Of a stretch of DNA of 43,985 nt, positions 1,661 to 43,985 are shown one piece after another. Below the pieces are notes generated by a model. The model did not search any database. It worked only from the letters and a program-made list of their open reading frames with translations, and was not told where the DNA came from. The translations under genes and the position numbers were made by a program. How positions within the stretch are numbered: the first letter of the stretch is position 1; every line of letters begins with the position of its first letter. This stretch comes from a virus. The DNA lies in IMG/VR virus record IMGVR_UViG_3300032086_001355, positions 1-43,985 of that record; one strand, given 5' to 3'.

Positions 1661-1677
1661 GGGGGGGCCAACCCCAG
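1661..1677 (+). repeat. G7-CCAA-C4 hairpin repeat, copy 1
   Basis: Seven G, CCAA, four C, then AG, lying two bases after a stop codon and eleven bases before a hammerhead motif. The G and C tracts can form a four-pair hairpin with GGGCCAA in the loop. Six further copies occur at other gene ends. There is no T-tract, so it is not a standard intrinsic terminator. Confidence 0.85.
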
Positions 1678-1687
1678 CACGACGTTA

Positions 1688-4995: not shown

Positions 4996-5014
4996 GGGGG
5001 GGCCAACCCCAGAA
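4996..5014 (+). repeat. G7-CCAA-C4 hairpin repeat, copy 2
   Basis: Seven G, CCAA, four C, AGAA, beginning two bases after a stop codon and lying between the last early gene and the AT-rich leader of the RNA polymerase gene. It matches copies at 1661, 8048 and 9957. Confidence 0.85.
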
Positions 5015-5032
5015 GGCCAGATACCAGTAAAG

Positions 5033-5087
5033 GGTAACTGTAAGTACACTTTAAGTAACTAATAGTTCAACGATAAGGAACTGATAG
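5033..5087 (+). promoter_or_regulatory. AT-rich leader of the RNA polymerase gene
   Basis: This 55-base AT-rich stretch contrasts with the GC-rich surroundings. It holds GTAACTGTAAGTACAC (5033-5048) and CTAATAGT (5059-5066), both recurring in the leader after the large terminase gene (41884-41907) with a shorter gap. I infer a promoter or regulatory element. No consensus -35/-10 pair can be assigned with confidence. A weak ribosome binding site (AAGGAA, 5075-5080) precedes the ATG at 5088. Confidence 0.45.
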
Positions 5088-7508
5088 ATGACTGAACGTC
5101 AAGAGATGAGAGAATTAACCCAGTTAGATGAAGGTGTTAGAAGGTATCACCGTGAGGTTAGCAAGCAGGGTGCCGGAGAGACTACTGCTGGACTGGGTCT
5201 TGTGTATGTAGGGATGAAGGCATTGATCCCTGCCATCGAAGGGAACATTGCCCGCCTTGAGGAGGGAGGCAACGGCAACCTGCCATCGCAGGTACCACTG
5301 GCCTATCAGTACATGGTAGGCATGAAGGCAGATGCCATCGCATACATCGCAAGCAAGGTGGTGGTGTCGGCATCCGTGAACCGAGGCAAGCTGACCCGTA
5401 CCGCAATGCAGATTGCGAACCTGATCGAGGAGGACTACAGGTTCGAGGAACTGGAGCAGGCTGAACCTGCGCTGGCCAACAGCATGAGCAAGAAGGCGCA
5501 ACGCTGGAGCAGTAGCGGGGCACGTCGTCGCATCATGCGCAAGGCGGCACAGGTGGCAGGCATAGCCACGATGGGCTGGACTGAGGCTGAGAAACTGAAG
5601 CTGGGTGTCAAGCTGGTCGAGTTGTACATCGAGACAACGGGGCTGGCGCAGCTGGTCGAGACACAAGAGGGCAAGATGACCTTCAAGTTGATCGAGATGA
5701 CTGAGCTGGCAGCCGAGCGTCTGGCCTCACGACACGCAAGCCTTGAAGGTGAGCGTCCAGTGAACAAGCCGATGATCGCGCCGCCTAAACCGTGGACCTC
5801 ACCGATCTCGGGTGGGTACCTGACACCACGCATGAAGACTGACTTGGTGCGTGGCGTAGGGCAGGCCACACGTGACGAGGTGTTCAGCTGTGACATGCCG
5901 GAGGTGTACGCCGCAGTCAACAGGGTGCAGGCTACACCTTGGCGCATCAACGTGGGTGTACTCGACACCATGCAGGCAGTGTTCGACGAGGGTGGTACTC
6001 TCGGTGGCCTGCCGCAGGCTGACGACATGGCACTGCCCGAGCGGCCCGAGAGTATCGACCGCAAGTGCAGTCCTGATGACATGCCCGAGGACATGTGTGC
6101 CACGTTCAACGAGTGGAAGCAGGCAGCACGTGAGGTGCATGAGTTCAACGGTCAGCTTAAGAGCAAGCGACTGGCACTCATCACCAAGCTGAACATGGCA
6201 CAGGACGTGCGAGATGAGGAGTCGATCTGGTTCCCGCACTCGCTGGACTTCCGTGGCCGTGTGTACTCCATGACGACCGAGCTGTCACCGCAGGGTGATG
6301 ACATTGCCAAGAGCCTGATTGAATTCGGCAACGGCAAGGCACTCGGTGAGACTGGTGGTTACTGGCTGGCTGTACATATCGCCAACCTGTTCGGTGTCGA
6401 CAAGGTATCGTTCGATGACCGGGTGGAGTGGACGGTGACGCAGTCGGACAAGCTGGTCGAGTCTGCGATGAACCCGCTCGATGGCGACAGGTTCTGGGCC
6501 AAGGCCGATGACCCGTGGTGTGCGCTGGCCGCATGCTTCGAGTGGGCTGGCTTCCAGATCGAGGGTGATGACTACGTGTCTCACCTGCCCATCGCAATGG
6601 ACGGGTCATGCTCTGGCATCCAGCACTTCAGTGCCATGCTGAGGGATGCGGAGGGTGGACGTGCTGTCAACCTGACCAACCTCGACCAGCCCTCGGACAT
6701 CTACACTGAGGTGTTGTACGTGGTGCAGGATATGTTGGCAGAAAATTCTGACCCGCTTGCTAAGGTGTGGATGGACAAGGTGGATCGCAAGATCGTCAAG
6801 CGTCCGTGCATGACCTTCGCGTACTCGGTGACGAGCGTCGGGATCAGGGATCAGATCGCCAGTGAGATGCGCAAGCAGACTGACGGTCAGTACCTGCCGG
6901 GGCATGAGAACTGGCAGGCTGCCATGTTCCTCGCACCCATCGTCGAGGCTGCCATCAGGCAGGTGGTCAAGCGTGCAGCTGAGGCTATGGACTGGCTCAA
7001 GCTGGCGGCCAAGGCACTCACCGCCGAGGAGATACCTACATCTTGGGTGACTCCACTGGGATTCCCGGTAGTCCAGCCGTACCGCAAGGCCAAGGGTCAG
7101 CTGTTCAAGGTCTGGTTCCAAGGCCAGCGCATCAGGCTGACGCTGAGGGTGGAGAGCAGGACCATCGACGGACGCAAGCAAGCGTCGAGTGTGGCACCCA
7201 ACTTCGTACACTCACTGGATGCTACCCATCTGATGATGGTGGTGAACAGGTTGTACGACGAGGGCATCACACCCAACACGGCCATGATCCATGACTCGTT
7301 CGGAGTCCATGCCTGTGACGTGGATGAGCTGCACTACGTGATACGTGATGAGTTCATCAAGCTGTACTCGGAGGACATCCTCACCCGTACCTACCAGTCA
7401 ACACTGCTGGCACTGCCGGGTGACAAGTGGCCTGACCTGCCGACACCACCGGAAGCGGGCGACCTGAACCTTGAGGAGGTGCGTGATGCCGACTTCTTCT
7501 TCGCCTAA
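5088..7508 (+). CDS. single-subunit DNA-directed RNA polymerase (T7 gp1-like)
   Basis: T7-family RNA polymerase that transcribes the phage middle and late genes. At 806 residues it is shorter than T7's 883. Motif A is DGSCSGIQHFSAMLRD with catalytic Asp505; motif B is KRPCMTFAYS with Lys571 and Tyr579, the same spacing as T7 Lys631/Tyr639; motif C is HDSFG with catalytic Asp736. The specificity-loop region lies between PYRKAKGQ and APNFVHS and differs fully from T7, so its promoter will differ. The protein ends in DADFFFA, matching the conserved aromatic foot. It is the first large gene after the early block. Confidence 0.98.
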   Translation: MTERQEMRELTQLDEGVRRYHREVSKQGAGETTAGLGLVYVGMKALIPAIEGNIARLEEGGNGNLPSQVPLAYQYMVGMKADAIAYIASKVVVSASVNRGKLTRTAMQIANLIEEDYRFEELEQAEPALANSMSKKAQRWSSSGARRRIMRKAAQVAGIATMGWTEAEKLKLGVKLVELYIETTGLAQLVETQEGKMTFKLIEMTELAAERLASRHASLEGERPVNKPMIAPPKPWTSPISGGYLTPRMKTDLVRGVGQATRDEVFSCDMPEVYAAVNRVQATPWRINVGVLDTMQAVFDEGGTLGGLPQADDMALPERPESIDRKCSPDDMPEDMCATFNEWKQAAREVHEFNGQLKSKRLALITKLNMAQDVRDEESIWFPHSLDFRGRVYSMTTELSPQGDDIAKSLIEFGNGKALGETGGYWLAVHIANLFGVDKVSFDDRVEWTVTQSDKLVESAMNPLDGDRFWAKADDPWCALAACFEWAGFQIEGDDYVSHLPIAMDGSCSGIQHFSAMLRDAEGGRAVNLTNLDQPSDIYTEVLYVVQDMLAENSDPLAKVWMDKVDRKIVKRPCMTFAYSVTSVGIRDQIASEMRKQTDGQYLPGHENWQAAMFLAPIVEAAIRQVVKRAAEAMDWLKLAAKALTAEEIPTSWVTPLGFPVVQPYRKAKGQLFKVWFQGQRIRLTLRVESRTIDGRKQASSVAPNFVHSLDATHLMMVVNRLYDEGITPNTAMIHDSFGVHACDVDELHYVIRDEFIKLYSEDILTRTYQSTLLALPGDKWPDLPTPPEAGDLNLEEVRDADFFFA

Positions 7509-7963: not shown

Positions 7964-8156
7964 CCTCACGTGGCTCAATGTGTACAACGCATGCACGGCG
8001 CGGATGCAGGAGGGCACGTGGCAGCCCCATGCACCATTCGATTTGAAGGGGGGGCCAACCCCAGAACAGAGGAAACGGAATGAACAGAGACAAGATGATA
8101 GGCATGGCAGCCACTCACCCGGCAGCCATGAGACAGGCAATGTACAAGGTGATTGA
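7947..8156 (+). CDS. small protein, 69 aa, read through a hairpin repeat
   Basis: ATG at 7947 overlaps the end of the preceding gene. The first 35 residues look like an ordinary small protein (MSSLTDLTWLNVYNACTA). The frame then runs through the G7 repeat, which encodes GGPTPE, and continues 77 bases into the next gene in another frame with low-complexity polar residues. The original stop was probably lost when the repeat arose, or the tail is not meaningful. The ribosome binding site is weak. Confidence 0.45.
   Translation: MSSLTDLTWLNVYNACTARMQEGTWQPHAPFDLKGGPTPEQRKRNEQRQDDRHGSHSPGSHETGNVQGD
8048..8066 (+). repeat. G7-CCAA-C4 hairpin repeat, copy 3
   Basis: Seven G, CCAA, four C, AGAA, at the 3' part of the frame starting at 7947 and 14 bases before the ATG at 8080. 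Identical in its core to copies 1 and 2. Confidence 0.85.
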
Positions 8157-8492: not shown

Positions 8493-9123
8493 ACGTAGCT
8501 ACCCCAAAATCACCACACCTCGTGGTGTCCTTGTGTACCCACACTTGGTTGAGCCTGACACGAAGTTCGTAAAGCCAGACGGCGAGTACCACACGAAGTT
8601 CGCATTGCAGGCAGACAGTGAGGAAGCAGCAGTCCTCACGAACAAGCTCGATGAGATCATGGAAGCGTACATCGAGGAGAACCCGGACGAGTTGAACGCA
8701 GCCAAGCTGAAGAAGGCGCTGCGTGCTGACCTGTACGAGGAGGAAGTGGATGACGAGGGCGAGGAGACTGGCCGCATCATCTTCAAGTTCAAGCTGAAGG
8801 CCAAGGTCGTGACGAAGAACAAGTCATGGGACCAGAAACCTCGGCTGTTCGACGGCAACGCGCAGCCTGTGACGGGCGACGTGAACCCGTGGACTGGGAC
8901 GGAGGCGAAGATCAGCGCCGAGGTGTTCCCCTACTACATGGAAACGACCAAGTCTTTCGGTCTGTCACTCAGGTGTCAGGCAGTACAGATTCTGAAGCTC
9001 GTGTCCGGTGGTGGTGCATCAGCTGATGACTTCGGGTTCGGCGCGGAGGAGGATGCGTTCGTATCTGAGGCCAGTGCTGAAGGGTTCACGCCTGAGTCGG
9101 ATGAGGATGGCGAAGAATTCTAA
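8485..9123 (+). CDS. single-stranded DNA-binding protein (T7 gp2.5-like)
   Basis: ATG at 8485 follows AGGAGAG. The 212-residue protein (T7 gp2.5 has 232) has an OB-fold-like core with basic and aromatic strands (IIFKFKLKAKVVTKN; NPWTGTEAKISAEVFPYY). Its strongly acidic C-terminal tail ends in Phe (SDEDGEEF). That acidic tail with terminal Phe is the hallmark of gp2.5-type proteins and contacts DNA polymerase and helicase. It coats single-stranded DNA in replication and recombination. Neighbours are the resolvase and lysozyme genes, the T7 2.5-3-3.5 order. Confidence 0.88.
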   Translation: MAKRSYPKITTPRGVLVYPHLVEPDTKFVKPDGEYHTKFALQADSEEAAVLTNKLDEIMEAYIEENPDELNAAKLKKALRADLYEEEVDDEGEETGRIIFKFKLKAKVVTKNKSWDQKPRLFDGNAQPVTGDVNPWTGTEAKISAEVFPYYMETTKSFGLSLRCQAVQILKLVSGGGASADDFGFGAEEDAFVSEASAEGFTPESDEDGEEF

Positions 9124-9532
9124 CGTGACGTGGAGGGGTAAGCAGTCTTTCGAGATTGTCTTACCCTTCCCACCCACACCTGCCTCACGACCACGTGTCA
9201 CCAAGTGGGGTGCGTACTACGGCAAGACATACAAGGCGTACCGTGAACTCGCGGAACAGGCAATACCGGAGTCACGTCAGCCCGTGCTAACAGGCGCACT
9301 CAAGGCCACGATTGAATTCGTGTGTCACAAACCGAAGACAACGAAACGTACAGTACCGTTGGGCGACATCGACAACCACTGCAAGGCAGTACTCGATGCG
9401 ATCACGGGTAAGAAACCCAACTTCAAGATGTACTGGGTGGACGACGACCAGATCACAGAGCTGTACGCATTGAAACGCTGGCCCTCACCGGGTGAGCAAC
9501 CACACACAAGGATCAAAGTTGAGACAATATGA
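9107..9532 (+). CDS. RusA-like Holliday junction resolvase
   Basis: The 141-residue product has the RusA-family arrangement: an N-terminal P-F-P-P-T-P-x-x-R-P-R-V segment, then GDIDNHCKAVLDAI with Asp87, Asp89 and Asp97, and VDDDQI with Asp113 as further candidate metal ligand. RusA enzymes cut four-way DNA junctions as dimers. It occupies the slot of T7 endonuclease I (gp3), which also resolves junctions but is unrelated, so this is a functional replacement. The start is uncertain: ATG 9107 is chosen, while ATG 9101 and GTG 9125 are alternatives. It overlaps the SSB and amidase genes. Confidence 0.85.
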   Translation: MAKNSNVTWRGKQSFEIVLPFPPTPASRPRVTKWGAYYGKTYKAYRELAEQAIPESRQPVLTGALKATIEFVCHKPKTTKRTVPLGDIDNHCKAVLDAITGKKPNFKMYWVDDDQITELYALKRWPSPGEQPHTRIKVETI

Positions 9533-9978
9533 ACTGGAAGAAGCTGAAGGCAGTGGACTACATCGTGATCCATTGTTCAGCAACGAAGGAAGACCAGAAC
9601 TTCACAGTCGAGGACATACGGAGGTGGCACAGACAGAAAGGATGGATGGATGTCGGCTACCACTTCGTGATAACTCGGGACGGGGAAGTACAGAAGGGTC
9701 GACCTCACGATGTTCCCGGCGCACACGTGCGTGGTTTCAACCACATCAGCCTCGGCATCTGCTTGGTTGGTGGGGTGGAATCTGACGGGAAGACACCCGA
9801 GAGTAACTACACTGCCTTTCAATGGAAGGCACTCGAATCATTGGTCAAGGACCTGCGCAACCTATACCCGGACGCTACTGTGCTGGGACACAGGGACATG
9901 CCCAATGTAAACAAGGCGTGCCCGTCATTCGATGTTCTGGAATGGTGGAGCAAAGTGGGGGGCCAACCCCAGAACTGA
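9529..9978 (+). CDS. N-acetylmuramoyl-L-alanine amidase (T7 lysozyme, gp3.5-like)
   Basis: The 149-residue protein matches T7 lysozyme in length (151). Zinc ligands are His15 (VIHCSAT), His121 and Cys131 (GHRDMPNVNKACPSFD); Tyr44 (GYHF) and Lys129 correspond to the catalytic Tyr and Lys. It cleaves the amide between MurNAc and L-Ala in peptidoglycan and, as in T7, may bind and inhibit the phage RNA polymerase; the second role is known for the family, not shown here. ATG overlaps the previous stop. The last six residues (GGQPQN) are encoded by the hairpin repeat at 9957. Confidence 0.95.
   Translation: MNWKKLKAVDYIVIHCSATKEDQNFTVEDIRRWHRQKGWMDVGYHFVITRDGEVQKGRPHDVPGAHVRGFNHISLGICLVGGVESDGKTPESNYTAFQWKALESLVKDLRNLYPDATVLGHRDMPNVNKACPSFDVLEWWSKVGGQPQN
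9957..9974 (+). repeat. G6-CCAA-C4 hairpin repeat, copy 4
   Basis: Six G, CCAA, four C, AGAA. It differs from the other copies by one G and lies inside the 3' end of the lysozyme gene, supplying its last codons and running up to the stop codon. The tract length therefore sets the reading frame of the C-terminus. Confidence 0.85.
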
Positions 9979-10315: not shown

Positions 10316-10461
10316 GGTCGGCGTTCTTGGGTGCTGTATTGGCTAACCCCACGCACCCACTCGTCCCCGCAATCAAGCGGGCCATGAAGCAGAAGCAGAA
10401 AGCATACGGTGGATGGACCACCAACGCGAGAGGAGTGTCACGTGGGAAACGCAGTCGCTAA
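10312..10461 (+). CDS. small basic protein, 49 aa
   Basis: ATG at 10312 overlaps the upstream TGA. The product is very basic (KRAMKQKQKAYGGW; RGVSRGKRSR) with a short hydrophobic N-terminus, which would suit nucleic-acid or ribosome contact. It overlaps the primase-helicase start by 20 bases and may be needed for coupling. Family unknown. Confidence 0.55.
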   Translation: MRSAFLGAVLANPTHPLVPAIKRAMKQKQKAYGGWTTNARGVSRGKRSR

Positions 10462-12073
10462 AGAACCTTGCCCTAAGTGCAGGGAGAACGGTGGTGACGA
10501 CAGCGGGGACAACCTCGCACGTTACGACGACGGAGGAGCGTACTGCTTTGCGTGTGGACACACGGAGCATGCGGAGGGTAGCACATCAGCTGCCCCTCGC
10601 AGTGCCCCGTCCAAGGCAAAGAGTCTGGTCGAGTTCGAGATCAGGCCGCTACTCAAACGCAAGATCAACGAGGAGACATGCAAGCATTTCAAGTACGGCA
10701 TTGGCGAGGTCAAGGGCGTACCAGTACACGTCGCGAACTACTGCGACAGCAACGGTAAGGTCGTAGCGCAGAAGATACGCGATGCGAAGAAGAACTTCAT
10801 GTTCGCAGGTGAGCCGAAGAAGGCCGAGCTATTCGGTCAGCATCTCTGGCGTGACGGTGGCCGCATGGTTGTCATCACGGAGGGAGAGATCGACGCACTC
10901 ACAGTGAGCATGTTGCAGAACAACAAGTGGCCTGTGGTCAGCGTGCCCAACGGTGCGCAGGGTGCGGCCAAGAGTGTAGCGAAGGCAAGCGAGTGGTTGG
11001 AATCGTTCGACAAGGTGATCTTCATGTTCGACATGGATGAGCCGGGTCGTACAGCTGCGAGCGAGTGTGCTGCCATGCTGTCACCGGGCAAGGCATTCAT
11101 TGCCAGCCTGCCACTGAAGGATGCGAACGAGTGCATGCTACAGGGCAAGGGCAAGGATGTGATTGATGCCATGTGGAACGCGAAGGCGTACCGCCCGGAT
11201 GGTGTCATCGACATCAGCGACGTGACTGACAAGGCATGTCAGGACATAGAGGTTGGCAGACCGTGGCCTTGGGCTTCCCTGACTGAGCGTACGTATGGCC
11301 GCCGCATCGGTGAACTGTACGGGTTCGGTGGAGGCACAGGCTGCGGTAAGTCGACGGTGTTCAAGCAGATCGCGAAGCACATCATCGAGACAGAGAACCT
11401 GCCCGTTGGACTCATCATGCTTGAAGAACCACCGAGCATGACGGCGAAGACGATAGCAGGCATGATGATGGGCAAGCGTGTGCATGTGCCCAACGTGGAG
11501 TACGACAGGCAGGAGCTACGAGATACCTTGGAGTCATTGGGTGGACGTGTGTTCTTGTACGATCACTTCGGCTCGATGTCGTTCGATGTCATCAAGCAGA
11601 AGATCAGGTACATGGTACGTGCGCTGGGTGTGAAGGACATCTTCCTTGACCACCTGACTGCACTGGCCGCAGCTATCGACACGGATGAACGCAAGGCTAT
11701 CGACGCAATCATGGCCGAGCTGTCCTCCCTGTGTCAGGAGCTGGAGTGTACCATCTACTACGTGTCGCACCTGACCACACCCGAGGGCAAGGCGCACGAG
11801 GAAGGCGGGCGTGTCTTGGAGAAACAGTTCCGAGGCTCACGTTCCATTGCCTACTGGTCGCACTTCCTGTTCGGGATCGAGAGGGACAAGCAAGATGAAG
11901 AAGGAGTTACAGTGTTCCGTGTGCTTAAGGACCGTTACACAGGTGACGCAGCGGGGTTGCGGTTTGGACTACGGTACGACACCGCAACGGGGGTGCTTGA
12001 AGAATGTCCGATACCTGAGGGCAAGTCTGGCAAAGCACACGGATTCGATGTGGAATTGGATGGAGAGTATTGA
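10442..12073 (+). CDS. DNA primase-helicase (T7 gp4-like)
   Basis: GTG at 10442 follows GAGAGGAG. The 543 residues carry, in order: an N-terminal zinc finger (CPKC near residue 10, CFAC near residue 35); a TOPRIM primase domain (TEGEID near 145, FMFDMDEPG near 195); and a RecA-like helicase with Walker A GGGTGCGKST near 300, Walker B IFLDH near 400, and the H4-type FRGSRSIAYW. It unwinds the fork and makes primers. T7 gp4 has 566 residues. No internal short-form start was sought in detail. Confidence 0.96.
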   Translation: MGNAVAKEPCPKCRENGGDDSGDNLARYDDGGAYCFACGHTEHAEGSTSAAPRSAPSKAKSLVEFEIRPLLKRKINEETCKHFKYGIGEVKGVPVHVANYCDSNGKVVAQKIRDAKKNFMFAGEPKKAELFGQHLWRDGGRMVVITEGEIDALTVSMLQNNKWPVVSVPNGAQGAAKSVAKASEWLESFDKVIFMFDMDEPGRTAASECAAMLSPGKAFIASLPLKDANECMLQGKGKDVIDAMWNAKAYRPDGVIDISDVTDKACQDIEVGRPWPWASLTERTYGRRIGELYGFGGGTGCGKSTVFKQIAKHIIETENLPVGLIMLEEPPSMTAKTIAGMMMGKRVHVPNVEYDRQELRDTLESLGGRVFLYDHFGSMSFDVIKQKIRYMVRALGVKDIFLDHLTALAAAIDTDERKAIDAIMAELSSLCQELECTIYYVSHLTTPEGKAHEEGGRVLEKQFRGSRSIAYWSHFLFGIERDKQDEEGVTVFRVLKDRYTGDAAGLRFGLRYDTATGVLEECPIPEGKSGKAHGFDVELDGEY

Positions 12074-12714: not shown

Positions 12715-14727
12715 ATGAGAGTATTCGACATTGAGTCAGACGGACTCTTGCAGGGACAGACGGATGACGACCAAGTCATCACGAAGTTACACTGCATCAA
12801 CGGAATAGACCGCCGCACAGGTCGCGAGTTACGCTTCACTGACCACGAGTTCTATCAGGACCTCGATGGTAACTACACGTCCACCCGCACACCACGTGAC
12901 GGTGACCTGCAAGCAGGCATCGAGTGGCTGCGGGGTGACGAAACTGGTGGGCACAACATCATTGGCTATGACATCCCGGCGATCATGTACCTGTACCCTG
13001 ACGCTGACCTGAACCCTGTTGGGTTCGACAGTCAGGTACTCGGCAAGTTAGCCGTGCCCAACCTGAAGGACCACGACTTCGCGAACATCCGCAAGGGTAA
13101 GTTCGACAAGTCATTCCGTGCCGGGGCGAACACGCTCAAGTCATGGGGCATACGAGTAGGCAAGCACCTGAAGGCCGACTTCGATCCCAAGAACTACGGG
13201 CACACTTGGAAGACGATGCCGTTCACGCAGGAGATGGACGAGTACTGCATGGATGACGTGCGTACCAACGTGGACGTGATCGAGTTCCAAGAGAAACGAC
13301 TGGCTGACTGCCCCATCGCAGTACAGCTGGAGCTTGAGACTGCCGAGATCATCAAGTGGCAGGAGCGGGTAGGCATACGATTCAACACAGAGGCCGCAGA
13401 AGAACTGGCTCGCGAGCTGTACTCCAAGCAGCACGAGCTGGAACTCAAGGCCAGAGAGAGCTTCGCGCCCTTCTACAAGAAGGACGGCAAGCGTAAGGTC
13501 CCAGCGAAACCTCATCGTCGCTTCAAGGTTGACCAACGCGGTGCTGTCACACGAAAGGTGAAGGGCGCGGAGCAGCGGGGGTGGTGGTGTACGACTGTCG
13601 GTGAGCATCAGCCCATCGTCATGGTCGAGTTCAACCCCGGCTCACGTGTGCAGATCGAGAACAGGCTGAGGTGGAAGTACGACTGGGAACCCACTGAGCT
13701 GACGAAGGAAGGACGGGCGAAGATCGACGAGGAAACTCTCGGCTCGCTACCATTCCCCGAGACGCAGACCATCTCGGAATACATGACGGTGCAGAAGCGC
13801 CTGTCTCAACTGGCCGAGGGATCACAAGCGTGGCTCAAGGCTGTCAAGAAGAACGGGAGGATATATGGCCGTGTGGATCAACTTGGTACGGGGACCGGGC
13901 GCATGTCGCACTTCGGTCCTAATCTTGCTCAGGTTCCTAAGTCTGGTAAGCCTTATGGTCACGAGTGTCGCGGTCTGTTTATTGCTGATCCCGACCGTGT
14001 CATTGTGGGTTGTGACGCGGATGCTCTCGAACTACGTATCCTCGCCCATTTCCTTGCCCGCTTCGACGGGGGCGCTTACGTACAGACGGTACTCGATGGC
14101 AATAAAGAAGATGGGACGGACATGCACTCGCGCAATCGGGACGCTGTCGGCCTACTGCAACGAGACACTGCGAAGACGTGGTTCTATGCGTTCATCTACG
14201 GCGCTGCGGACTTCAAGCTGGGGACCGTCGTCATGTCCGAATGGGATGCCGACAAGCTCATCAAGTTCTACAAGGCGTTCCCACCCGGACAGCGCAGGCG
14301 TAGCAAGATCGTCGCAATCGGTAAGCGATCCCGCTCACGCCTCATGTCCTCACTACCTGCCTTCAAACGACTTGTCGACACAGTGCATGCTGCCGCCGAA
14401 CGGGGCTATCTGCATGGACTCGACAAGCGGCAGGTGCCAGTACGGGCGAAGCACTCTGCCCTTAACTTCCTCTGCCAAGGAGCAGGGGCACTCGTGATGA
14501 AGAAGGCACTGGTCATCATGTTCCAGAAGTACAGACAGGAGAAGTTGGATGTGCGTCCACTACTTAACGTACATGACGAGGTGCAGCACAGCACCCCAAG
14601 GGAGGAAGCAGAAGATGTTGGACGGATTGCAGCACAGGCGATCACCGAGGCAGGAGAATTCTTCGGACTTAGATGTCCACTTGCCGGGGACTATGCGGTC
14701 GGACTATCTTGGAACGAAACCCATTAG
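12715..14727 (+). CDS. DNA polymerase (T7 gp5-like, family A)
   Basis: Replicative polymerase of 670 residues (T7 gp5 has 704). The N-terminal 3'-5' exonuclease carries Exo I DIESDG (Asp5, Glu7) and a later YCMDDV segment resembling Exo III. The polymerase domain has RMSHFGPNLAQVP, motif A CDADALELR with catalytic Asp434, motif B RDTAKTWFYAFIYGA, and motif C VHDE with catalytic Asp621. The thumb region should bind host thioredoxin if the T7 model holds; that is not readable from sequence alone. ATG at 12715. Confidence 0.97.
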   Translation: MRVFDIESDGLLQGQTDDDQVITKLHCINGIDRRTGRELRFTDHEFYQDLDGNYTSTRTPRDGDLQAGIEWLRGDETGGHNIIGYDIPAIMYLYPDADLNPVGFDSQVLGKLAVPNLKDHDFANIRKGKFDKSFRAGANTLKSWGIRVGKHLKADFDPKNYGHTWKTMPFTQEMDEYCMDDVRTNVDVIEFQEKRLADCPIAVQLELETAEIIKWQERVGIRFNTEAAEELARELYSKQHELELKARESFAPFYKKDGKRKVPAKPHRRFKVDQRGAVTRKVKGAEQRGWWCTTVGEHQPIVMVEFNPGSRVQIENRLRWKYDWEPTELTKEGRAKIDEETLGSLPFPETQTISEYMTVQKRLSQLAEGSQAWLKAVKKNGRIYGRVDQLGTGTGRMSHFGPNLAQVPKSGKPYGHECRGLFIADPDRVIVGCDADALELRILAHFLARFDGGAYVQTVLDGNKEDGTDMHSRNRDAVGLLQRDTAKTWFYAFIYGAADFKLGTVVMSEWDADKLIKFYKAFPPGQRRRSKIVAIGKRSRSRLMSSLPAFKRLVDTVHAAAERGYLHGLDKRQVPVRAKHSALNFLCQGAGALVMKKALVIMFQKYRQEKLDVRPLLNVHDEVQHSTPREEAEDVGRIAAQAITEAGEFFGLRCPLAGDYAVGLSWNETH

Positions 14728-15654: not shown

Positions 15655-15833
15655 AGACGTGGCTATGCGATGACCGGAACGACAACTCCGTGTTCATCAG
15701 GGCAGCCAGCTGGGACGAGGCACAGGACATGTGCTTCGGTTCCGGCCTGCGTCTGGTTGGCGAACACGTACCCCTAACCGAGGAGCAGGCACGCGCCCCG
15801 CTCTGGCTTACCGAAGGAGAGACATTGCAATGA
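15651..15833 (+). CDS. small acidic protein, 60 aa, unknown function
   Basis: ATG at 15651 overlaps the previous TGA. The pattern MKTWLCDDRNDNSVFIRAAS, WDEAQDMCFGSGLRLVGEH is a strand-strand-helix arrangement seen in small phage proteins of unknown role. The C-terminus ends in EGETLQ and overlaps the exonuclease start (ATGA). Confidence 0.65.
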   Translation: MKTWLCDDRNDNSVFIRAASWDEAQDMCFGSGLRLVGEHVPLTEEQARAPLWLTEGETLQ

Positions 15834-16612
15834 GTAAGACAATCCTACTTGACGCTGACATCGTGGCGTACAAGGTAGCGTGCATCAACCAGAAGGACTA
15901 CGACTTCGGGGACACTGGCAGTGCCCGTGTGCTTGAGCATGACAAGTGCCTTGCGCAGACCGAGGAGTTGATCGCGGAGTACTGCGAGAGGACTGGCGCT
16001 TCACGTGCCGTGGTCTGCCTGTCTGACCCGAAGAACAACTTCAGGAAGGAACTGGATGCCACCTACAAGGCCAACCGCAAGGGTGTGGAGAAACCCGAGA
16101 TGCTACAGTGGGTGAAGGACTACCTCGCTCACGAGTATCCCACCTTCATCCGGCCATTTCTGGAAGCTGACGACTGCATGGGCATACTGGCCCTGCGCCC
16201 GAGACTCTTGGGTAGTCGATATGCTGGCGACGAGGTCATCATGGTGTCCGAGGACAAGGACATGCGGACGGTACCGGGCAAGCTGTACAACCCCAACCAG
16301 TACCAGCTTGGAGTCATCGACATCAGCGTCGAGGATGCCAACAGGTTCCACATGTACCAGACTATCTGCGGCGACCCGACTGACGGGTACCCCGGAGTCA
16401 AGGGAGTCGGCCCCAAGTCTGACTTCGTGACCTACCTCATGGAGGACGCAGAGCCTGATGAGTTCTGGGATGTCGTACTCGAAGCCTATGCCTCGAAGGG
16501 GCAGAACGAGGACGACGCTATCCTTCAGGCACGGCTGGCTCACATCCTCTGGGATACCAGCTACAACTTCAAGACAAAGGGCATTCGCCTTTGGCAGCCG
16601 TACTGGCTGTAA
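15830..16612 (+). CDS. 5'-3' exonuclease (T7 gp6-like, FEN family)
   Basis: ATG at 15830 follows GAAGGAGAG. The 260 residues show the FEN/5'-nuclease arrangement: LLDADIVAYK near the N-terminus, FRKELDATYKANRKG in the arch region, EADDCMGILA, SEDKDMRTVPG, then GDPTDGYPGVKGVGPKS as the helix-3-turn-helix DNA-binding motif. The acidic residues of these motifs bind two metal ions. In T7 the enzyme degrades host DNA, removes primers and supports recombination. It is the last gene before the structured RNA and terminator. Confidence 0.93.
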   Translation: MSKTILLDADIVAYKVACINQKDYDFGDTGSARVLEHDKCLAQTEELIAEYCERTGASRAVVCLSDPKNNFRKELDATYKANRKGVEKPEMLQWVKDYLAHEYPTFIRPFLEADDCMGILALRPRLLGSRYAGDEVIMVSEDKDMRTVPGKLYNPNQYQLGVIDISVEDANRFHMYQTICGDPTDGYPGVKGVGPKSDFVTYLMEDAEPDEFWDVVLEAYASKGQNEDDAILQARLAHILWDTSYNFKTKGIRLWQPYWL

Positions 16613-16744: not shown

Positions 16745-16780
16745 GTAAGTCATTGATTTAGAGGGGGGGCCACCCCCAGA
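16745..16780 (+). promoter_or_regulatory. GTAAGTCATTGATT plus G7 hairpin element, copy 5 (possible phage promoter)
   Basis: GTAAGTCATTGATT (16745-16758) is followed by TAGA, seven G, CCA and CCCCCAGA. The same 14-mer with the same following repeat occurs at 41827-41862 and nowhere else I could see. Both lie directly before a transcription unit: here the structural genes, there the terminal leader. An AT-containing 17-base block followed by a G-rich start is the general shape of T7-type promoters, so I infer a phage promoter. The hairpin arm here is CCACCCCC instead of CCAACCCC, still pairing with the G tract. Confidence 0.45.
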
Positions 16781-16820
16781 AGGCACGCCCCCTCTAACTG
16801 TAACCCCCCGGAGAACGCGA

Positions 16821-17285: not shown

Positions 17286-18794
17286 ATGGCTACTGCGAAG
17301 GAACGGTTCACTACCCTGAACTCGAAGCGTGACCAAGTACTACAGCGTGGTCGTGATTGTGCGGACATCACCATCCCGGCACTCATGCCGCCCGAAGGTG
17401 CTGACGAGAACACGTCCCTGTCCACCCCATATCAGAGCCTCGGCTCACGTGGCGTGAACAACCTCACGTCCAAGCTCAGGCTCGCCCTGTTCCCACCCGG
17501 CAACCCGTTCTTCCGCTTCCAGATTGAGCCGGAGACACTGGCGTTGATCGGCGGTGAGGACCCAGAGGCTGCCGAAGCTATCGAAGCTGCCATGCAGCAG
17601 CTTGAGAACGACGCACTGCGCCTGCTTGAAGGTGGCACCGACTCGGTGATCCTTCATTCGGCCATCAAACAACTCGTGGTGACAGGCAACGTCCTGCTCC
17701 ACATGCCTAAGAGCGAGGAGTCTCGCATCTTCAGGCTACAGAACTACGTTGTGGTACGTGACGCATCAGGCAACTGGTACGAGATCGTAACACAAGAGAA
17801 AGTCTCTAAGTACACACTGCCCGACGACGCAAAGGGATTGCTCGTTGAAGCAGAGAACGATGGCGACGAGGATGTCACCATATACACACACGTCCGCAAG
17901 GAAGGCAACAAGGCTGTGTGGTACCAAGAGATAGACGAGAAGGAAATCCCCGGCTCTCAGGGCCGTACGTCCTACGACAACTCCCCGTTCATCCCGCTCA
18001 GGTGGGCTGCGTTGGAGAACGAGAACTATGGTCGTGGTCACTGCGAGGAATACCTCGGTGATCTGCGCTCACTCGAAGACCTGTCGAAGGACCTCGTGTC
18101 TTTCTCAGCTGCTGCCGCCAAGGTTATCTTCCTTGACCGCCCCAACTCCACGACTGACCTCGAAGCACTGCAAGATGCAGAGTCGGGTGAGTTTGTTGAG
18201 GGCAACATCGAAGACATCGGCGTACTCCAGCTGAATAAGTTCCACGATTTCCAAGTCGCCAAAGCACAGATCGACGATCTGTCACTCAGACTGTCCCACG
18301 CATTCCTGCTGACCACGGGCACCGTCCGTAACGCGGAACGTGTGACCGCCGAAGAAATTCGGATGCAGGCACAGGAACTCGAAGACGTACTGGGTGGTGT
18401 CTACACCGTCCTTGCCGCTGAACTACAACACAAGGTGGTTCGCAGGCTCATCGAGCGCCTGAAATCCCAAGGACGGTTCCCTACTCTGCCGTCAGGTGCA
18501 GTGAACCCGGTCATCGTGACTGGATTCGAGGCACTCGGACGTGGCCACGAGCTGAACAAACTCCGTCAGTACTTTGCTGATGGTGTTGGTATGTTCGGTG
18601 AAGCATTCATGGCTGAGTTTGACCCAGCAGCAGTAGCAGACAGATTGTCAACACATCACAACGTCGACGTTCAAGCACTTCGCAAGACCGACGAAATGAA
18701 AGAGGCCGAAACCCAGCAGCAGCAGACAGCTATGGTAGCTGACAAAGCGGTTGGACCCGTAGCCGGAGCAATGGCTAAGGGCATGGTCGAATAA
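17286..18794 (+). CDS. portal (head-tail connector) protein, T7 gp8-like
   Basis: 502 residues (T7 gp8 has 536). Landmarks: RDCADITIPALMPPEG, the TPYQSLGSRGVNNLTSKL segment, FPPGNPFFRF, and RNAERVTAEEIRMQAQELE near the C-terminal third, all typical of podovirus portals. Twelve copies form the ring through which DNA enters and leaves and on which the scaffold and tail assemble. It starts with ATG at 17286 behind AAGGAC. The C-terminus is Gln-rich. Confidence 0.96.
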   Translation: MATAKERFTTLNSKRDQVLQRGRDCADITIPALMPPEGADENTSLSTPYQSLGSRGVNNLTSKLRLALFPPGNPFFRFQIEPETLALIGGEDPEAAEAIEAAMQQLENDALRLLEGGTDSVILHSAIKQLVVTGNVLLHMPKSEESRIFRLQNYVVVRDASGNWYEIVTQEKVSKYTLPDDAKGLLVEAENDGDEDVTIYTHVRKEGNKAVWYQEIDEKEIPGSQGRTSYDNSPFIPLRWAALENENYGRGHCEEYLGDLRSLEDLSKDLVSFSAAAAKVIFLDRPNSTTDLEALQDAESGEFVEGNIEDIGVLQLNKFHDFQVAKAQIDDLSLRLSHAFLLTTGTVRNAERVTAEEIRMQAQELEDVLGGVYTVLAAELQHKVVRRLIERLKSQGRFPTLPSGAVNPVIVTGFEALGRGHELNKLRQYFADGVGMFGEAFMAEFDPAAVADRLSTHHNVDVQALRKTDEMKEAETQQQQTAMVADKAVGPVAGAMAKGMVE

Positions 18795-20132: not shown

Positions 20133-21077
20133 ATGGCTAACGCAACACCTTCACGTCTTGGTCAAGTCCAAGGCGCAGGCGACACTCGCGCCATGTTTGA
20201 GAAGGTCTTCGCAGGTGAGGTTCTGACCGCGTTCGAGACGAACACGATTCTGAAACCTTTGACCGAGCATAAGACCATCGCAAGCGGCAAGTCTGCCTCC
20301 TTCCCGGCTATCTACAAAGCATCTGCTGCCTACCACACGGCAGGCACCGAGCTTACGGGTACCGCCATCCAGCACAACGAAGTCACCATCTCGGTTGACG
20401 ACCAGTTGATCGCTGATACCTTCATCGCCAACATTGATGAAGCTATGAACCACTACGACGTACGCTCGCCGTACAGCTCTGAGCTTGGCCTCGCCCTCGC
20501 TCTGTTCTACGACAAGAACGTCGCTCGTAACATCGCCCGTGCTGCACGCGGCAACGCCCTGTTCTCTGCCGATACTGGTGGAACGCAGATCACTGATGCT
20601 GACTCTAACACGTCCGCTACTTCGCTGGCTGGTTCCATCTGGACCGCGAAGCAGACGATGGAAGAAGCTGATGTACCTGTCGAAGCTGTACCTGTTCAGG
20701 CTGTTGTTAAGCCCGCACAGTGGTACCTGCTTGCTCAGGAAAGCACGCTCGTTCTGAACCGTGACGTTGACGGCGACGGATCGTACTCGAAGGGTTCCTT
20801 CAGCATGATCGGTGGCGTAAACGTATCGCGTTCTAACGCTCTCCCGTTCGTCGACAGCTCTGCTGACCAGACGATCCCGTCCGCGTACCGCCTGAACATG
20901 TCGACCACGACTGGTCTGGTATTCGTCAGCCGCGCCGCCGCAACTGTACAGTTGATTGGCATGGCGACTGAAGAAATCTATGACGGTCGCCGTCAGGGCA
21001 CGTTGATGCTTGGCAAGATGGCCGTAGGTCATGGCCCGCTCATCAACAAGGCTGCGGTAGAAATCATCACGGCGTAA
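20133..21077 (+). CDS. major capsid protein, T7 gp10A-like
   Basis: 314 residues (T7 gp10A has 345) with the HK97-type fold expected for this family. Recognisable segments are RAMFEKVFAGEVLTAFE, LTEHKTIASGKSASFPAI, SVDDQLIADTFIANIDEA and RQGTLMLGKMAVGHGPL. It forms the icosahedral shell. No obvious slippery site with a long extension is present, so a 10B-type frameshift product is not supported. A UUCG-loop terminator lies behind it, as T-phi does in T7. Confidence 0.97.
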   Translation: MANATPSRLGQVQGAGDTRAMFEKVFAGEVLTAFETNTILKPLTEHKTIASGKSASFPAIYKASAAYHTAGTELTGTAIQHNEVTISVDDQLIADTFIANIDEAMNHYDVRSPYSSELGLALALFYDKNVARNIARAARGNALFSADTGGTQITDADSNTSATSLAGSIWTAKQTMEEADVPVEAVPVQAVVKPAQWYLLAQESTLVLNRDVDGDGSYSKGSFSMIGGVNVSRSNALPFVDSSADQTIPSAYRLNMSTTTGLVFVSRAAATVQLIGMATEEIYDGRRQGTLMLGKMAVGHGPLINKAAVEIITA

Positions 21078-40028: not shown

Positions 40029-41774
40029 ATGAACACGTATCCCGTATGGGTGCAGACAGGTACCCACAAGAAGATGCACGACGACTTCAAGGTCTTCTTG
40101 TGGTGGCTCTGGAAGCAACTGGGACTACCCGACCCGACAGAAGCACAGTACGAGATCGCGGACTACCTTCAGTACGGCCCCAAGCGCCGGATCGTGATGG
40201 CGTTCCGTGGCGTAGGCAAGAGCTGGATCACAGCCGCCTTCGTCCTCTGGTGCCTCATGCGTAACCCGCAAGAGAAGATGATGGTGGTATCGGCCAGCGA
40301 GTACAAGGCTGCCGAGTTCTCCACGTTCACCAAGCAGCTCATCGAGACGCTCCCCCTGTTAAGCTGGCTACAAGCTCGCCCAAAGGACGGACAGCGTGAC
40401 TCGGTGCTTGCCTTCGACGTAGGACCCTCTACGCCCGCACAGGCTCCCTCAGTGCGAGCTGTGGGTGTTACCGGGCAGATGACTGGTGGTCGCGCCACGA
40501 AGGTGATCTTCGATGACATCGAGGTTCCCAACAACTCAGAGACTGAAGGCAAACGAGAGAAGCTGGACAACCGCGCCCGTGAAATGGGTGGTGCTATTCT
40601 GGTACCGGGCGGTGACTCCATTGGACTCGGCACTCCTCAGTCTACACAAACCATCTACAACGGGTTCAGTGAGCGCGGGTACAACCTGCGAGTCTGGCCT
40701 GCGAGGTATCCTGATGAAGAACAAATCCAAAAGTACCAAGGACGTTTGGCTCCCGGCATTCTTCGACGGCTCTCAGACGATAGTAGCTTGGTGGGACGAC
40801 CAGTCGATCCTGCTCGATTCCACGAAGAAGACTTGCTGGAGCGTGAAGCTGAGTATGGAAGAAGTGGATTCGCACTTCAGTTCATGCTCGACACCACACT
40901 CTCTGATGAGAATAGGTACCCGCTCAAACTGAGGGACCTGATCGTCATGGACGTGGACACCGAGCGTGCCCCTGCCCGTATCACGTGGGCAACCTCTGAG
41001 GCGCTCCCAGTGGACAACGTGGGACTCACAGGGGACAGGTACTACCTACCCATGAGCGTCTCCACGAAAGACGAGGACATGCTTCCCTACGAAGCCTCAG
41101 TCCTGTTCGTCGATCCCTCCGGGCGCGGCAAGGATGAGACTGCCTTCTGTGTGGCCAAGATGCTGCATGGACGGGTGTTCGTCAAACGCTGGGGCGGTTT
41201 CACAGGTAACGGTTACGACGAGGTCGTACTCGAAGCTCTGGCTACCATTGCCAAGAACGAGCAGGTGAACGAGGTGTGGACCGAGGACAACTTCGGTGAC
41301 GGCATGTTCAACGCCCTGTTCGCTCCTGTCCTGAACCGGATACATCCCTGTGGCCTTGACGGGTACCGGGTGTCCGGCCAGAAGGAAGCGAGGATGATCG
41401 ACAAGCTCGAACCTGTTATGAACAATCACAGGCTTGTCATTGATAAGTCCATCGTGGAACAACAGTTCAACAACCTGCCAGAAGACGCAGGAGAACGTGC
41501 CCGCTACTACAACCAGTTCTACCAGATGGCATTCGTCACACGTGACAGGGGTGCCCTCAAGCAGGACGATAGACTCGATGTCCTTGCAGAAGCTGTCGGT
41601 TACTTTACCTCGATGGTCGCCAGAGACACTGAGAGGGCCGCTGACAGGACTTCAGAGAAGCAGAAGGACAAGTCCCTTAAGGAGTTCATAAAGGCTGCCC
41701 AGCGTGGCCACACGAAGCGTGACCTGTATCCTGCACCCAAACGTAGGAAGGGTTCGTGGGCACGAAGGCGATAA
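40029..41774 (+). CDS. terminase large subunit (T7 gp19-like)
   Basis: 581 residues (T7 gp19 has 586). Walker A is FRGVGKSW (about residues 59-66), Walker B ATKVIFDDIE near 158, and the coupling region is GTPQSTQTIYN. The nuclease domain begins with VDPSGRGKDET near 358, and TEDNFGDGMF and DDRLDVLAEAV supply the other acidic residues. It powers DNA packaging and cuts concatemers. ATG at 40029 follows CGAGGAGAG. The C-terminus is basic (PAPKRRKGSWARRR), as expected for portal contact. Confidence 0.97.
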   Translation: MNTYPVWVQTGTHKKMHDDFKVFLWWLWKQLGLPDPTEAQYEIADYLQYGPKRRIVMAFRGVGKSWITAAFVLWCLMRNPQEKMMVVSASEYKAAEFSTFTKQLIETLPLLSWLQARPKDGQRDSVLAFDVGPSTPAQAPSVRAVGVTGQMTGGRATKVIFDDIEVPNNSETEGKREKLDNRAREMGGAILVPGGDSIGLGTPQSTQTIYNGFSERGYNLRVWPARYPDEEQIQKYQGRLAPGILRRLSDDSSLVGRPVDPARFHEEDLLEREAEYGRSGFALQFMLDTTLSDENRYPLKLRDLIVMDVDTERAPARITWATSEALPVDNVGLTGDRYYLPMSVSTKDEDMLPYEASVLFVDPSGRGKDETAFCVAKMLHGRVFVKRWGGFTGNGYDEVVLEALATIAKNEQVNEVWTEDNFGDGMFNALFAPVLNRIHPCGLDGYRVSGQKEARMIDKLEPVMNNHRLVIDKSIVEQQFNNLPEDAGERARYYNQFYQMAFVTRDRGALKQDDRLDVLAEAVGYFTSMVARDTERAADRTSEKQKDKSLKEFIKAAQRGHTKRDLYPAPKRRKGSWARRR

Positions 41775-41826: not shown

Positions 41827-41862
41827 GTAAGTCATTGATTGGGAGGGGGGGCCACCCCCAGA
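41827..41862 (+). promoter_or_regulatory. GTAAGTCATTGATT plus G7 hairpin element, copy 6 (possible phage promoter)
   Basis: It repeats the element at 16745: the same 14-mer, then GGGA, seven G, CCA and CCCCCAGAG. It lies 52 bases behind the large terminase stop and before the AT-rich leader. The pairing of two otherwise unrelated loci over 14 plus about 20 bases, with only the two bases between them and the start of the hairpin differing, argues for a recognised signal. Confidence 0.45.
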
Positions 41863-41883
41863 GGGTCAGGATAGAACTATAAT

Positions 41884-41967
41884 GTAACTATAAGTATACT
41901 AATAGTAGACTAAGAGATAACTAAGAGGGGACTGTAAGGGTACTGGTAAGGGTTAATTACCCTTATT
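41884..41967 (+). promoter_or_regulatory. AT-rich leader with repeats, shared with the RNA polymerase leader
   Basis: GTAACTATAAGTATAC then TAATAGT (41884-41906) matches the RNA polymerase leader at 5033-5066 with 11 bases deleted. It is followed by two close copies of ACTAAGAG (41909-41916, 41920-41927) and by the inverted repeat AAGGGT/ACCCTT (41949-41963). A TATAAT occurs at 41878-41883 without a convincing -35. I read the stretch as a promoter or replication-related region; primary origins of T7-like phages are AT-rich and near promoters, but that is inference. Confidence 0.4.
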
Positions 41968-42034
41968 CATATCCTACTACCTCCTTAAAGGTACTGCTCA
42001 TTTCAGAGGAGACTCAGAGGAACAGGAGGCTATT

Positions 42035-42249: not shown

Positions 42250-42470
42250 GTGGACACGCCGCAGTGGCCCCCGTGCCTCCTTCCTATGCGCGTATCGCGG
42301 GGGGCCAGACCTGCCCGTTTCCCTGCCCGCGAACCTAATGCGCACCCGGCACGCGGCACCTGCCTGTACGCGGTTCGTTCATTATGAGGCACCCGGCAGG
42401 CACGGCACGTCGACGGGCAGGCACGGCACGCTATCCTATGCGGCACTCGCACCCGGCACCCGATATGTTT
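42250..42470. repeat. GC-rich degenerate repeat region (left part)
   Basis: Noncoding, GC-rich, built from variants of GGCACCC, GGCACGG and GGCAGGCACGGCACG, including ACCCGGCACGCGGCAC, AGGCACCCGGCAGGCACGG and GCAGGCACGGCACG. It is interrupted by a T-run and an AT island at 42468-42488. Together with the right part it sits between the last gene and the early region, where T7 carries its short-repeat arrays flanking the terminal repeat. Confidence 0.7.
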
Positions 42471-42501
42471 TTTTCGTATACATTATATGGCCGTCAAATT
42501 A

Positions 42502-42517
42502 GGGGGGGCCATTCCCA
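42502..42517 (+). repeat. G7 hairpin repeat, copy 7 (CCATTCCC variant)
   Basis: Seven G, CCA, TTCCC, AG. The arm differs from the other copies but still pairs with the G tract through G-T pairs, and the GGCCA at the centre is kept. It lies at the AT-rich junction between the two GC repeat arrays. Confidence 0.75.
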
Positions 42518-42522
42518 GTAGA

Positions 42523-42692
42523 CTACCAGTCGACGGCACGGCACCCGGCACGGCACCCGGCACGGCACCCGGCACGATAGCGGGCAGGGTGCTACCAGTC
42601 GACGGCACGGCACCCGGCAGGCAGGCAGGCAGGCACCCGGCAGGCACGGCAAGGGTGCCGGAAAGGGTGCGCAAGGGTGCCGGAAAGGGTGC
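42523..42692. repeat. tandem repeat arrays near the probable genome end
   Basis: Three layers are visible. The 12-mer GGCACGGCACCC is present three times and a half (42535-42576). A 28-base unit starting CTACCAGTCGACGG occurs at 42523-42550 and 42592-42619. GGCA is repeated five times around 42615-42635. Then AAGGGTGCCGGAAAGGGTGC occurs twice with period 22 (42651-42670, 42673-42692). The GGGTGC units are the reverse complement of the GCACCC units, so the single strand can fold into long hairpins. I infer a role like T7 SRL/SRR in concatemer processing. Confidence 0.8.
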
Positions 42693-43232
42693 CTGATAGC
42701 GGGATTATTGCGGGAATTCGGCCAGAATTCGGGCAGGGTGCCGATTATTTCCAAACTAAAATCACCCATAATTCAGTCACTTAGCAGCAATCGGCCATTT
42801 ATTTCCAGAAAAGGCTTGCAATAATCTGGCACGGCGCTAATCTGGGAACCGTCGACGGCCAGCGGATTCTTGGCCACCGGGTTACAAGCCGCACCGTCGA
42901 TCATCCCTGACCGGGAAATGAGCTTGCGGGAATGACCCGCTTCAGAACGGTCGCGAAGGGATACGGGAATATGCTCCAGCGCATTCGACTGGAAACACGG
43001 CACCCGCGAATTAAGCCGCCATCACGTGAGACTTGGGAAGTCGGGAAGCGTGCGAGTAAGTAGAAAATCCGCTGGGAAGTTGACAGTGTTCGCACGTGGA
43101 ATGATCTGGCCGACCGGGCGAAACATTGGAACCCACGTGTAACCCGCTCACATGGCACATGCGTGAGAATTCCGTGCCTGCCTTGATTGGATTCTGGCCG
43201 GAAGTGTACCGCGTCCGTGTTGCATGTGAGCG
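42693..43232. other. noncoding region between repeat arrays and early genes
   Basis: No convincing gene on the + strand. A nested hairpin is present at 42909-42952 (GACCG/CGGTC around GCGGG-AATGA-CCCGC), and GGCCA/TGGCC at about 42860-42877. A TTGACA hexamer stands at 43080-43085 without a good -10 at normal spacing. On the minus strand a 76-codon frame (42773-43003, GTG start) is open but lacks a clear ribosome binding site. By T7 analogy this should hold the true terminal repeat boundary and the host-type early promoters, neither of which I can pin down. Confidence 0.5.
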
Positions 43233-43879: not shown

Positions 43880-43937
43880 CCGAAACGGTGCCTACACGGG
43901 CCGTCCGCGTGCGACTTTACGGCACGCGCTGATGAGG
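43880..43937 (+). ncRNA. hammerhead ribozyme, type II, copy 1
   Basis: CC-GAAA (43880-43885); stem III ACGGT, bulged G, CC, loop TACAC, GG, GCCGT (43885-43904, one G-T pair); cleavage triplet GTC ending at 43905; stem I CGCGTGC/GCACGCG (43906-43912 with 43922-43928) with loop GACTTTACG; CTGATGA (43929-43935) and GG. Stem II has two G-C pairs. Stem III has exactly the bulge and loop plan of copy 3 with different bases. It serves the gene starting at 43946, identical to 52. The part from 43895 is duplicated at window position 1. Confidence 0.85.
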
Positions 43938-43985
43938 AGAAAATCATGGAAAATCGCAAAACGGTAACACCCACGCAGGTGAGTG
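43895..43985. repeat. terminal duplication, right copy
   Basis: Exact copy of bases 1-91; see the left copy. Joining the ends gives one continuous early region, with the ribozyme at 43880 complete and the gene starting at 43946 continuing as the one at 52. Confidence 0.95.
43946..43985 (+). CDS. 5' fragment of the 53-aa early gene (same as 52-213)
   Basis: ATG at 43946 and the first 13 codons are the same gene as at 52; it is cut by the window end. It should not be counted as a second gene. Confidence 0.8.
   Translation, partial: MENRKTVTPTQVS

Follow-up and report, generated by a model that had tools for sequence, protein, structure and literature searches.

The window, that is the whole stretch of DNA analysed here, is the record of a T7-like podophage, 43,985 bp long, whose ends overlap by 91 bp. 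The following genes are recognised in it:

5088..7508, + strand: T7-like single-subunit RNA polymerase (RNAP), 806 aa
8431-9123: Gp2.5-like SSB
9008-9532: RusA resolvase
9529-9978: amidase
10409-12073: primase/helicase
12715-14727: DNA polymerase
15731-16612: exonuclease
17286-18794: connector
20133-21077: major capsid
40029-41774: terminase large subunit

No integrase or MarR regulator was found among the proteins scanned, some small ORFs having been left out of that scan, and the Rfam and tRNA scans returned no matches. A leader repeat is located at 9-44, 807-842 and 1711-1746, with a copy at 43903-43938 in the end overlap. It contains a hairpin with two-sided changes in the stem (GCGTGC/GCACGC, GCATGC/GCATGC and CGTGCAT/ATGCACG), followed by a Shine-Dalgarno-like stretch, CTGATGAGGAGA; it has no Rfam match and is a putative conserved RNA structure preceding early genes. 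The region 42300-42700 is dense in GGCACGGCACCC tandem repeats and includes a repeated block, CTACCAGTCGACGGCACGGCACCCGGCA, adjoining position 42502. As the ends of the record look arbitrary, this region may lie close to the true end of the genome or to its packaging region.

The G-tract repeat and its conservation

A first-pass annotation of this DNA had reported a G-tract hairpin repeat at 1661, 4996, 8048, 9957, 16763, 41845 and 42502, and all seven copies lie exactly there. Their consensus is (A)GGGGGGGCCANYCCCAG(AA), and all seven are on the + strand, which is the coding strand. The central GGCCA is invariant as reported, the lack of a T-run is borne out, and the described tract of six or seven G needs only the detail that at 9957 it comprises six G, with T at 9956. 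The core GGGGGGCCANYCCCAG, allowing up to 2 mismatches, is found seven times versus 0.19 expected from dinucleotide shuffles, none of which contains seven. A longer pattern with up to 3 mismatches returns only the same seven copies from the whole window and no intermediate or decayed ones, so the repeat family has no decayed members. The repeat is also the top-scoring dispersed coding-strand repeat of the genome, 7/7 in gene direction, in the strict version of the dispersed-motif search; a loose 17-mer version was swamped by codon repeats.

The placement always at the 3' end of a gene, as first described, is loosely true, and an equally good description puts the copies upstream of the gene or gene block that follows. 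Those at 1661 and 4996 lie 1-3 nt past a stop codon and that at 16763 lies 14 nt past one, the copy at 9957 overlaps the final codons of the amidase gene, that at 41845 is about 70 nt past the terminase gene, that at 42502 lies within a non-coding stretch, and the placement of 8048 is ambiguous. Just upstream of 16763 and 41845 (window 16746-16763 and 41828-41845) there are 13 bases of extra identity, TAAGTCATTGATT, suggesting either recombination between these two sites or an extension specific to late-class promoters.

Conservation in related phages, which the first-pass annotation had proposed as a check, is found in the close relative IMGVR_UViG_3300031841_001583 (G001), whose RNAP is 97% identical and whose nucleotide identity is about 93% over long stretches. 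G001 has seven copies at the corresponding gene junctions and very nearly the same TAAGTCATTGATT extension, and the sequence outside the sites drifts between the two genomes while the core is conserved. Across the 14 sites, variation is confined to motif positions 1 (G/T/C), 11 (A/C/T) and 12 (C/T), with 2-10 and 13-17 the same throughout. When 2.9 million IMG/VR contigs were scanned for the motif, G001 alone had at least 3 copies; two contigs have two copies and the other hits are single.

The claim that the C/T-rich arm varies but keeps pairing with the G tract did not survive comparison of these 14 sites (9 distinct rows), as no pair shows a two-sided change. Two of the five stem pairs are missing from some rows, the innermost from 5/9 distinct rows and the outermost from 2/9, and single-site folding, as RNA or DNA, falls within about 1.8 sd of shuffles. 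The invariant A16 and G17 lie outside the stem, and the unpaired loop is invariant as well. The conservation is of sequence and not of structure. The repeat was rejected as an intrinsic terminator, lacking a U-run and having a hairpin not clearly above shuffles, and the sites up to 17500 are absent from a terminator-like scan. A hairpin promoter of the N4 vRNAP type is disfavoured, since the stem pairs are not kept across sites and DNA folding is not clearly above shuffles.

Shared junctions and the phage RNA polymerase

The sites were compared with those of several T7-like phages. LUZ100 (OP329100) has eight phage-specific promoters, five identified by ONT-cappable-seq and three recovered from the same data via their motif: phi1 is before the RNAP gene, phi2 and phi3 are after it, phi4 is after the amidase gene, phi5 is within the gene following phi4, phi6 is before the connector gene, phi7 is before the capsid gene and phi8 is after the terminase gene (PMC10134795). 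In the Rhizobium phage RHEph01 the top dispersed motif, ATTACCCCTCCCTTAAG, is found at 5019, 7790, 12116, 19686 and 40688, which by annotation respectively precede RNAP, follow it, lie at the lysozyme end, precede the connector and follow the terminase. BB8 has TGTG(G/A)GGTTGCACATAAGGATA-like sites at four of the same junctions (7053, 9746, 19065 and 40990). The sites of the window, each listed as the interval -19 to -1 of a predicted promoter, compare as follows:

1661..1679, + strand: predicted phage-RNAP promoter, +1 at 1680; early/middle region; syntenic copy in G001
4996..5014, + strand: predicted promoter upstream of the RNAP gene (ATG 5088), +1 at 5015; AT-rich stretch next; junction of LUZ100 phi1, RHEph01 5019 and BB8 7053
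8048..8066, + strand: predicted promoter between the RNAP and SSB genes, +1 at 8067; SD and ATG 8080 next; junction of LUZ100 phi2/phi3, RHEph01 7790 and BB8 9746
9956..9974, + strand: predicted promoter overlapping the amidase 3' end (9529-9978), T for the first G, +1 at 9975; junction of LUZ100 phi4 and RHEph01 12116
16763..16781, + strand: predicted promoter between the exonuclease (ends 16612) and head-tail connector (17286) genes, +1 at 16782; interval of LUZ100 phi6, RHEph01 19686 and BB8 19065
41845..41863, + strand: predicted promoter after the terminase large subunit gene (40029-41774), +1 at 41864; AT-rich stretch next; phiOR-like by position; junction of LUZ100 phi8, RHEph01 40688 and BB8 40990
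42502..42520, + strand: predicted promoter in the non-coding end region, +1 at 42521; phiOL/phiOR-like by position; syntenic copy in G001

Five sites (4996, 8048, 9957, 16763 and 41845) thus share five junctions with LUZ100 (phi1, phi2/3, phi4, phi6 and phi8) and with all five RHEph01 sites. The hypergeometric probability of five shared junctions is about 3.5e-5 for LUZ100 and 6e-6 for RHEph01, with about 55 junctions assumed, sites assigned to junctions by hand from annotation and relatives selected by the authors, a selection that applies also to the register statistics. When the repeat is slid without gaps along -12 to +2 of seven promoters, known or predicted, its best register is CCANYCCCAGAA followed by G, with a modest column-shuffle p of 0.018. 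In this register CCANYCCCAGAA aligns with the specificity-loop element plus melting region, -12 to -1, and ATTA (-16 to -13) has the G-tract as its counterpart. The core agrees with RHEph01 CCCCTCCCTTAA at C-12, C-11, C-7, C-6, C-5, A-2 and A-1, with Y at -8. In 14/14 sites the G-tract occupies -17 to -13, where the T7 consensus has its AT-rich element; the melting region (-4 to -1) is AGAA, AGCA, AGAG or AGTA, less AT-rich than that of T7. The predicted +1 is G in 4/7 window sites and C in three, so the predicted start could be 1-3 bases off.

No AT-type promoter family was found in the window. Other IMG/VR contigs, among them L048, L049, L057 and L068, have ATTA or AT-rich promoter-like motifs beside their RNAP genes. 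An intergenic search of S2B and jiawei, which have the two closest RNAP relatives, returned other motifs and no clear promoter motif of the G-tract type. The dispersed-motif search also gave candidate RNAP promoter families in L028 (BB8; 7053, 9746, 19065 and 40990) and L030 (Pasto; 11885, 22001 and 42183), and candidate families near RNAP in L044, L049, L051, L057, L068 and L076. A second motif, ATCCACYNNCGCA, is found in several T7-like phages, in five of them 5-8 nt past the end of the RNAP match. It occurs in LUZ100 (L026) at 378, 579, 3997, 6691, 11571 and 22152, in L034 at 4967, 12495 and 21416, in L077 at 5146, in L069 at 2005 and in L096 at 2229; the window has none. Two of the LUZ100 copies follow TTGACA inside the host promoters P1 and P2, and the reverse complement of the motif resembles TTGCGTCAATCCAT of Caulobacter phage S2B. 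A repressor operator is a possible reading of this motif.

The RNAP matches PHROG 414 (E 1.8e-235) and Pfam RNA_pol (7.6e-122), its best solved relative is T7 RNAP and its structure model has a pLDDT of 85.3; it is a T7-fold enzyme. Its identity to phage records is at most 41%, and a search for relatives in bacterial genomes found none. Residues 59-67 form the AT-rich recognition loop region and residues about 659-693 the specificity-loop hairpin. In the alignment the recognition loop is GGNGNLPSQVPLAY, devoid of basic residues and longer by four residues, in the place of GKAGRRHSA or similar in relatives using ATTA-type promoters; in the model it is unstructured between two helices, with the lowest pLDDT at residues 64-70. 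The basic pair is also missing from the loops of Syn5 (GTGAVDAAE; promoter with GGG) and BB8 (GHPSHRGLA; upstream half G-rich). Among 21 phages the AT content of upstream elements and the number of basic residues are weakly correlated (rho 0.45, p 0.04), the rows being related and not independent, and the L034 row being unreliable, as its motif is probably the separate ATCCACYNNCGCA element and not a promoter. The association between loop and upstream element is weak and at most suggestive. In the specificity loop, the residues that we take from the alignment to be the equivalents of T7 Arg746 and Asn748 are Leu and Lys, which would be in keeping with a changed specificity.

Candidate promoters of the phage RNA polymerase

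The seven repeats are very probably promoters of the phage's own T7-like RNAP with a divergent upstream element, in which a G run stands for the AT-rich half. Three features of this promoter class are found here: the phage has its own T7-like RNAP, several near-identical copies lie on the same strand at junctions before gene blocks, and the core is similar in one register to the specificity-loop element of other members, at the modest significance given above (p = 0.018). The evidence fits sites at which transcription units would start, not finish. The absence of the AT-rich element means that they are not T7-consensus promoters of the TAATACGACTCACTATAG type.

The first-pass annotation had offered several readings, of which the phage RNA polymerase as actor and a protein binding site agree with the evidence; a hairpin pause or terminator, an RNA processing site and a dispersing element fail because compensatory pairing and a U-run are lacking and the copies sit at the promoter junctions of relatives. 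A GGGG/CCCC hairpin in the RNA at the 3' ends of transcripts, whether it pauses or terminates transcription, stabilises the 3' end or marks a site of RNase processing, would suit the three sites at most 14 nt past stop codons, and a GC stem of 4-5 bp can fold in the RNA (-5.4 to -11.5 kcal/mol). It is nonetheless very unlikely, given the unpaired inner and outer positions, folding within about 1.8 sd of shuffles, invariant bases in the loop and beyond the stem, the lack of an Rfam match and the agreement of site positions with mapped LUZ100 promoters. We likewise give little credence to a G-tract/C-tract site read partly as an extruded DNA hairpin, in the manner of the N4 virion RNA polymerase, by a T7-type enzyme: some sites keep the full stem, but the broken pairs in several copies count against it. 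Equally doubtful is the corollary that such a site would be an intermediate between duplex- and hairpin-reading polymerases, on a path that Syn5 (GGGCACCC) would share.

An operator for another phage or host regulator could account for the imperfect dyad GGGG-N7-CCCC and the fixed sequence at gene junctions. All copies have the same orientation, however, their conservation is asymmetric (G6/A10, AG tail), none of the scanned proteins was recognised as a regulator and the genome would be left without a recognisable promoter set for its RNAP, so that we consider this reading hardly credible. A small mobile or dispersing repeat without function is the most improbable of all: the copies are near-identical and two share the additional 13 bases upstream, but the same seven positions are kept in G001, the core is conserved where the flanks drift, only one strand is used and the set is found nowhere else among the IMG/VR contigs scanned.

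Read as promoters, the sites would have +1 at the site start + 19, that is 19 bases after the first G. The specificity loop would read positions -12 to -5 (CCANYCCC) as a duplex element, melting would take place at -4 to -1 (mostly AGAA), and the diverged, insertion-bearing N-terminal loop of the RNAP would read the G-tract at -19 to -13, where T7, LUZ100 and RHEph01 have their AT-rich element. Host transcription would make the first RNAP, which would then amplify itself from site 4996 before its own gene, the remaining sites driving the replication, morphogenesis and genome-end blocks; RNAP binding, transcription start and self-activation at these sites are what we infer. A positive loop of the RNAP on its own gene has been proposed for LUZ100 (PMC10134795). 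Very AT-rich stretches (5004-5160 and 41848-42024) lie directly downstream of the predicted promoters 4996 and 41845, with 60-nt stretches that rank at the 99.9th percentile of genome AT content. The primary origin of T7 consists of a promoter followed by an AT-rich region, and by this likeness in layout the two sites may double as replication origins.

If true, this would be an RNAP-promoter pair with a G run for the AT-rich upstream half that most T7-type polymerases read, and one expected to be orthogonal to T7, T3 and SP6. The matching change in the recognition loop would open the evolution of promoter recognition to direct loop-swap tests. A rule for uncultured T7-like phages would also follow, the promoter being the dispersed motif that flanks the RNAP gene and recurs before the connector and after the terminase genes.

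Comparison with known phage promoters

A literature search, with most subscription journals outside its reach, found no promoter with a G7 upstream element. The T7 and T3 promoters (TAATACGACTCACTATAG and AATTAACCCTCACTAAAG) resemble the window sites in C at -7, A at -1 and a multi-copy layout with class II/III-like and end-proximal sites; unlike them, the window sites have a G-tract for the AT-rich -17 to -13 and no TATA-like melting region. The proven promoter of Syn5 RNAP is ATTGGGCACCCGTAA, with a GGG..CCC core (PMC3950665). It is similar in having a G-tract/C-tract core with a short A-rich region between it and +1, and a polymerase loop without the basic pair, but its G and C tracts are only 3 each, with other spacing, ATT upstream and a 15-bp unit, and its RNAP is only 27% identical to that of the window. 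The RHEph01 motif, at sites that are predicted only, has an ATTA upstream element, but shares the CC....CCC..AA core and has five copies at five same junctions. LUZ100 phi1-phi8 differ in an AATTA upstream element in place of the G-tract and at -9 to -1; they are alike in the CC-A core at -12 to -10, in C at -7, and in having several near-identical coding-strand copies at the same junctions, including one before the polymerase's own gene.
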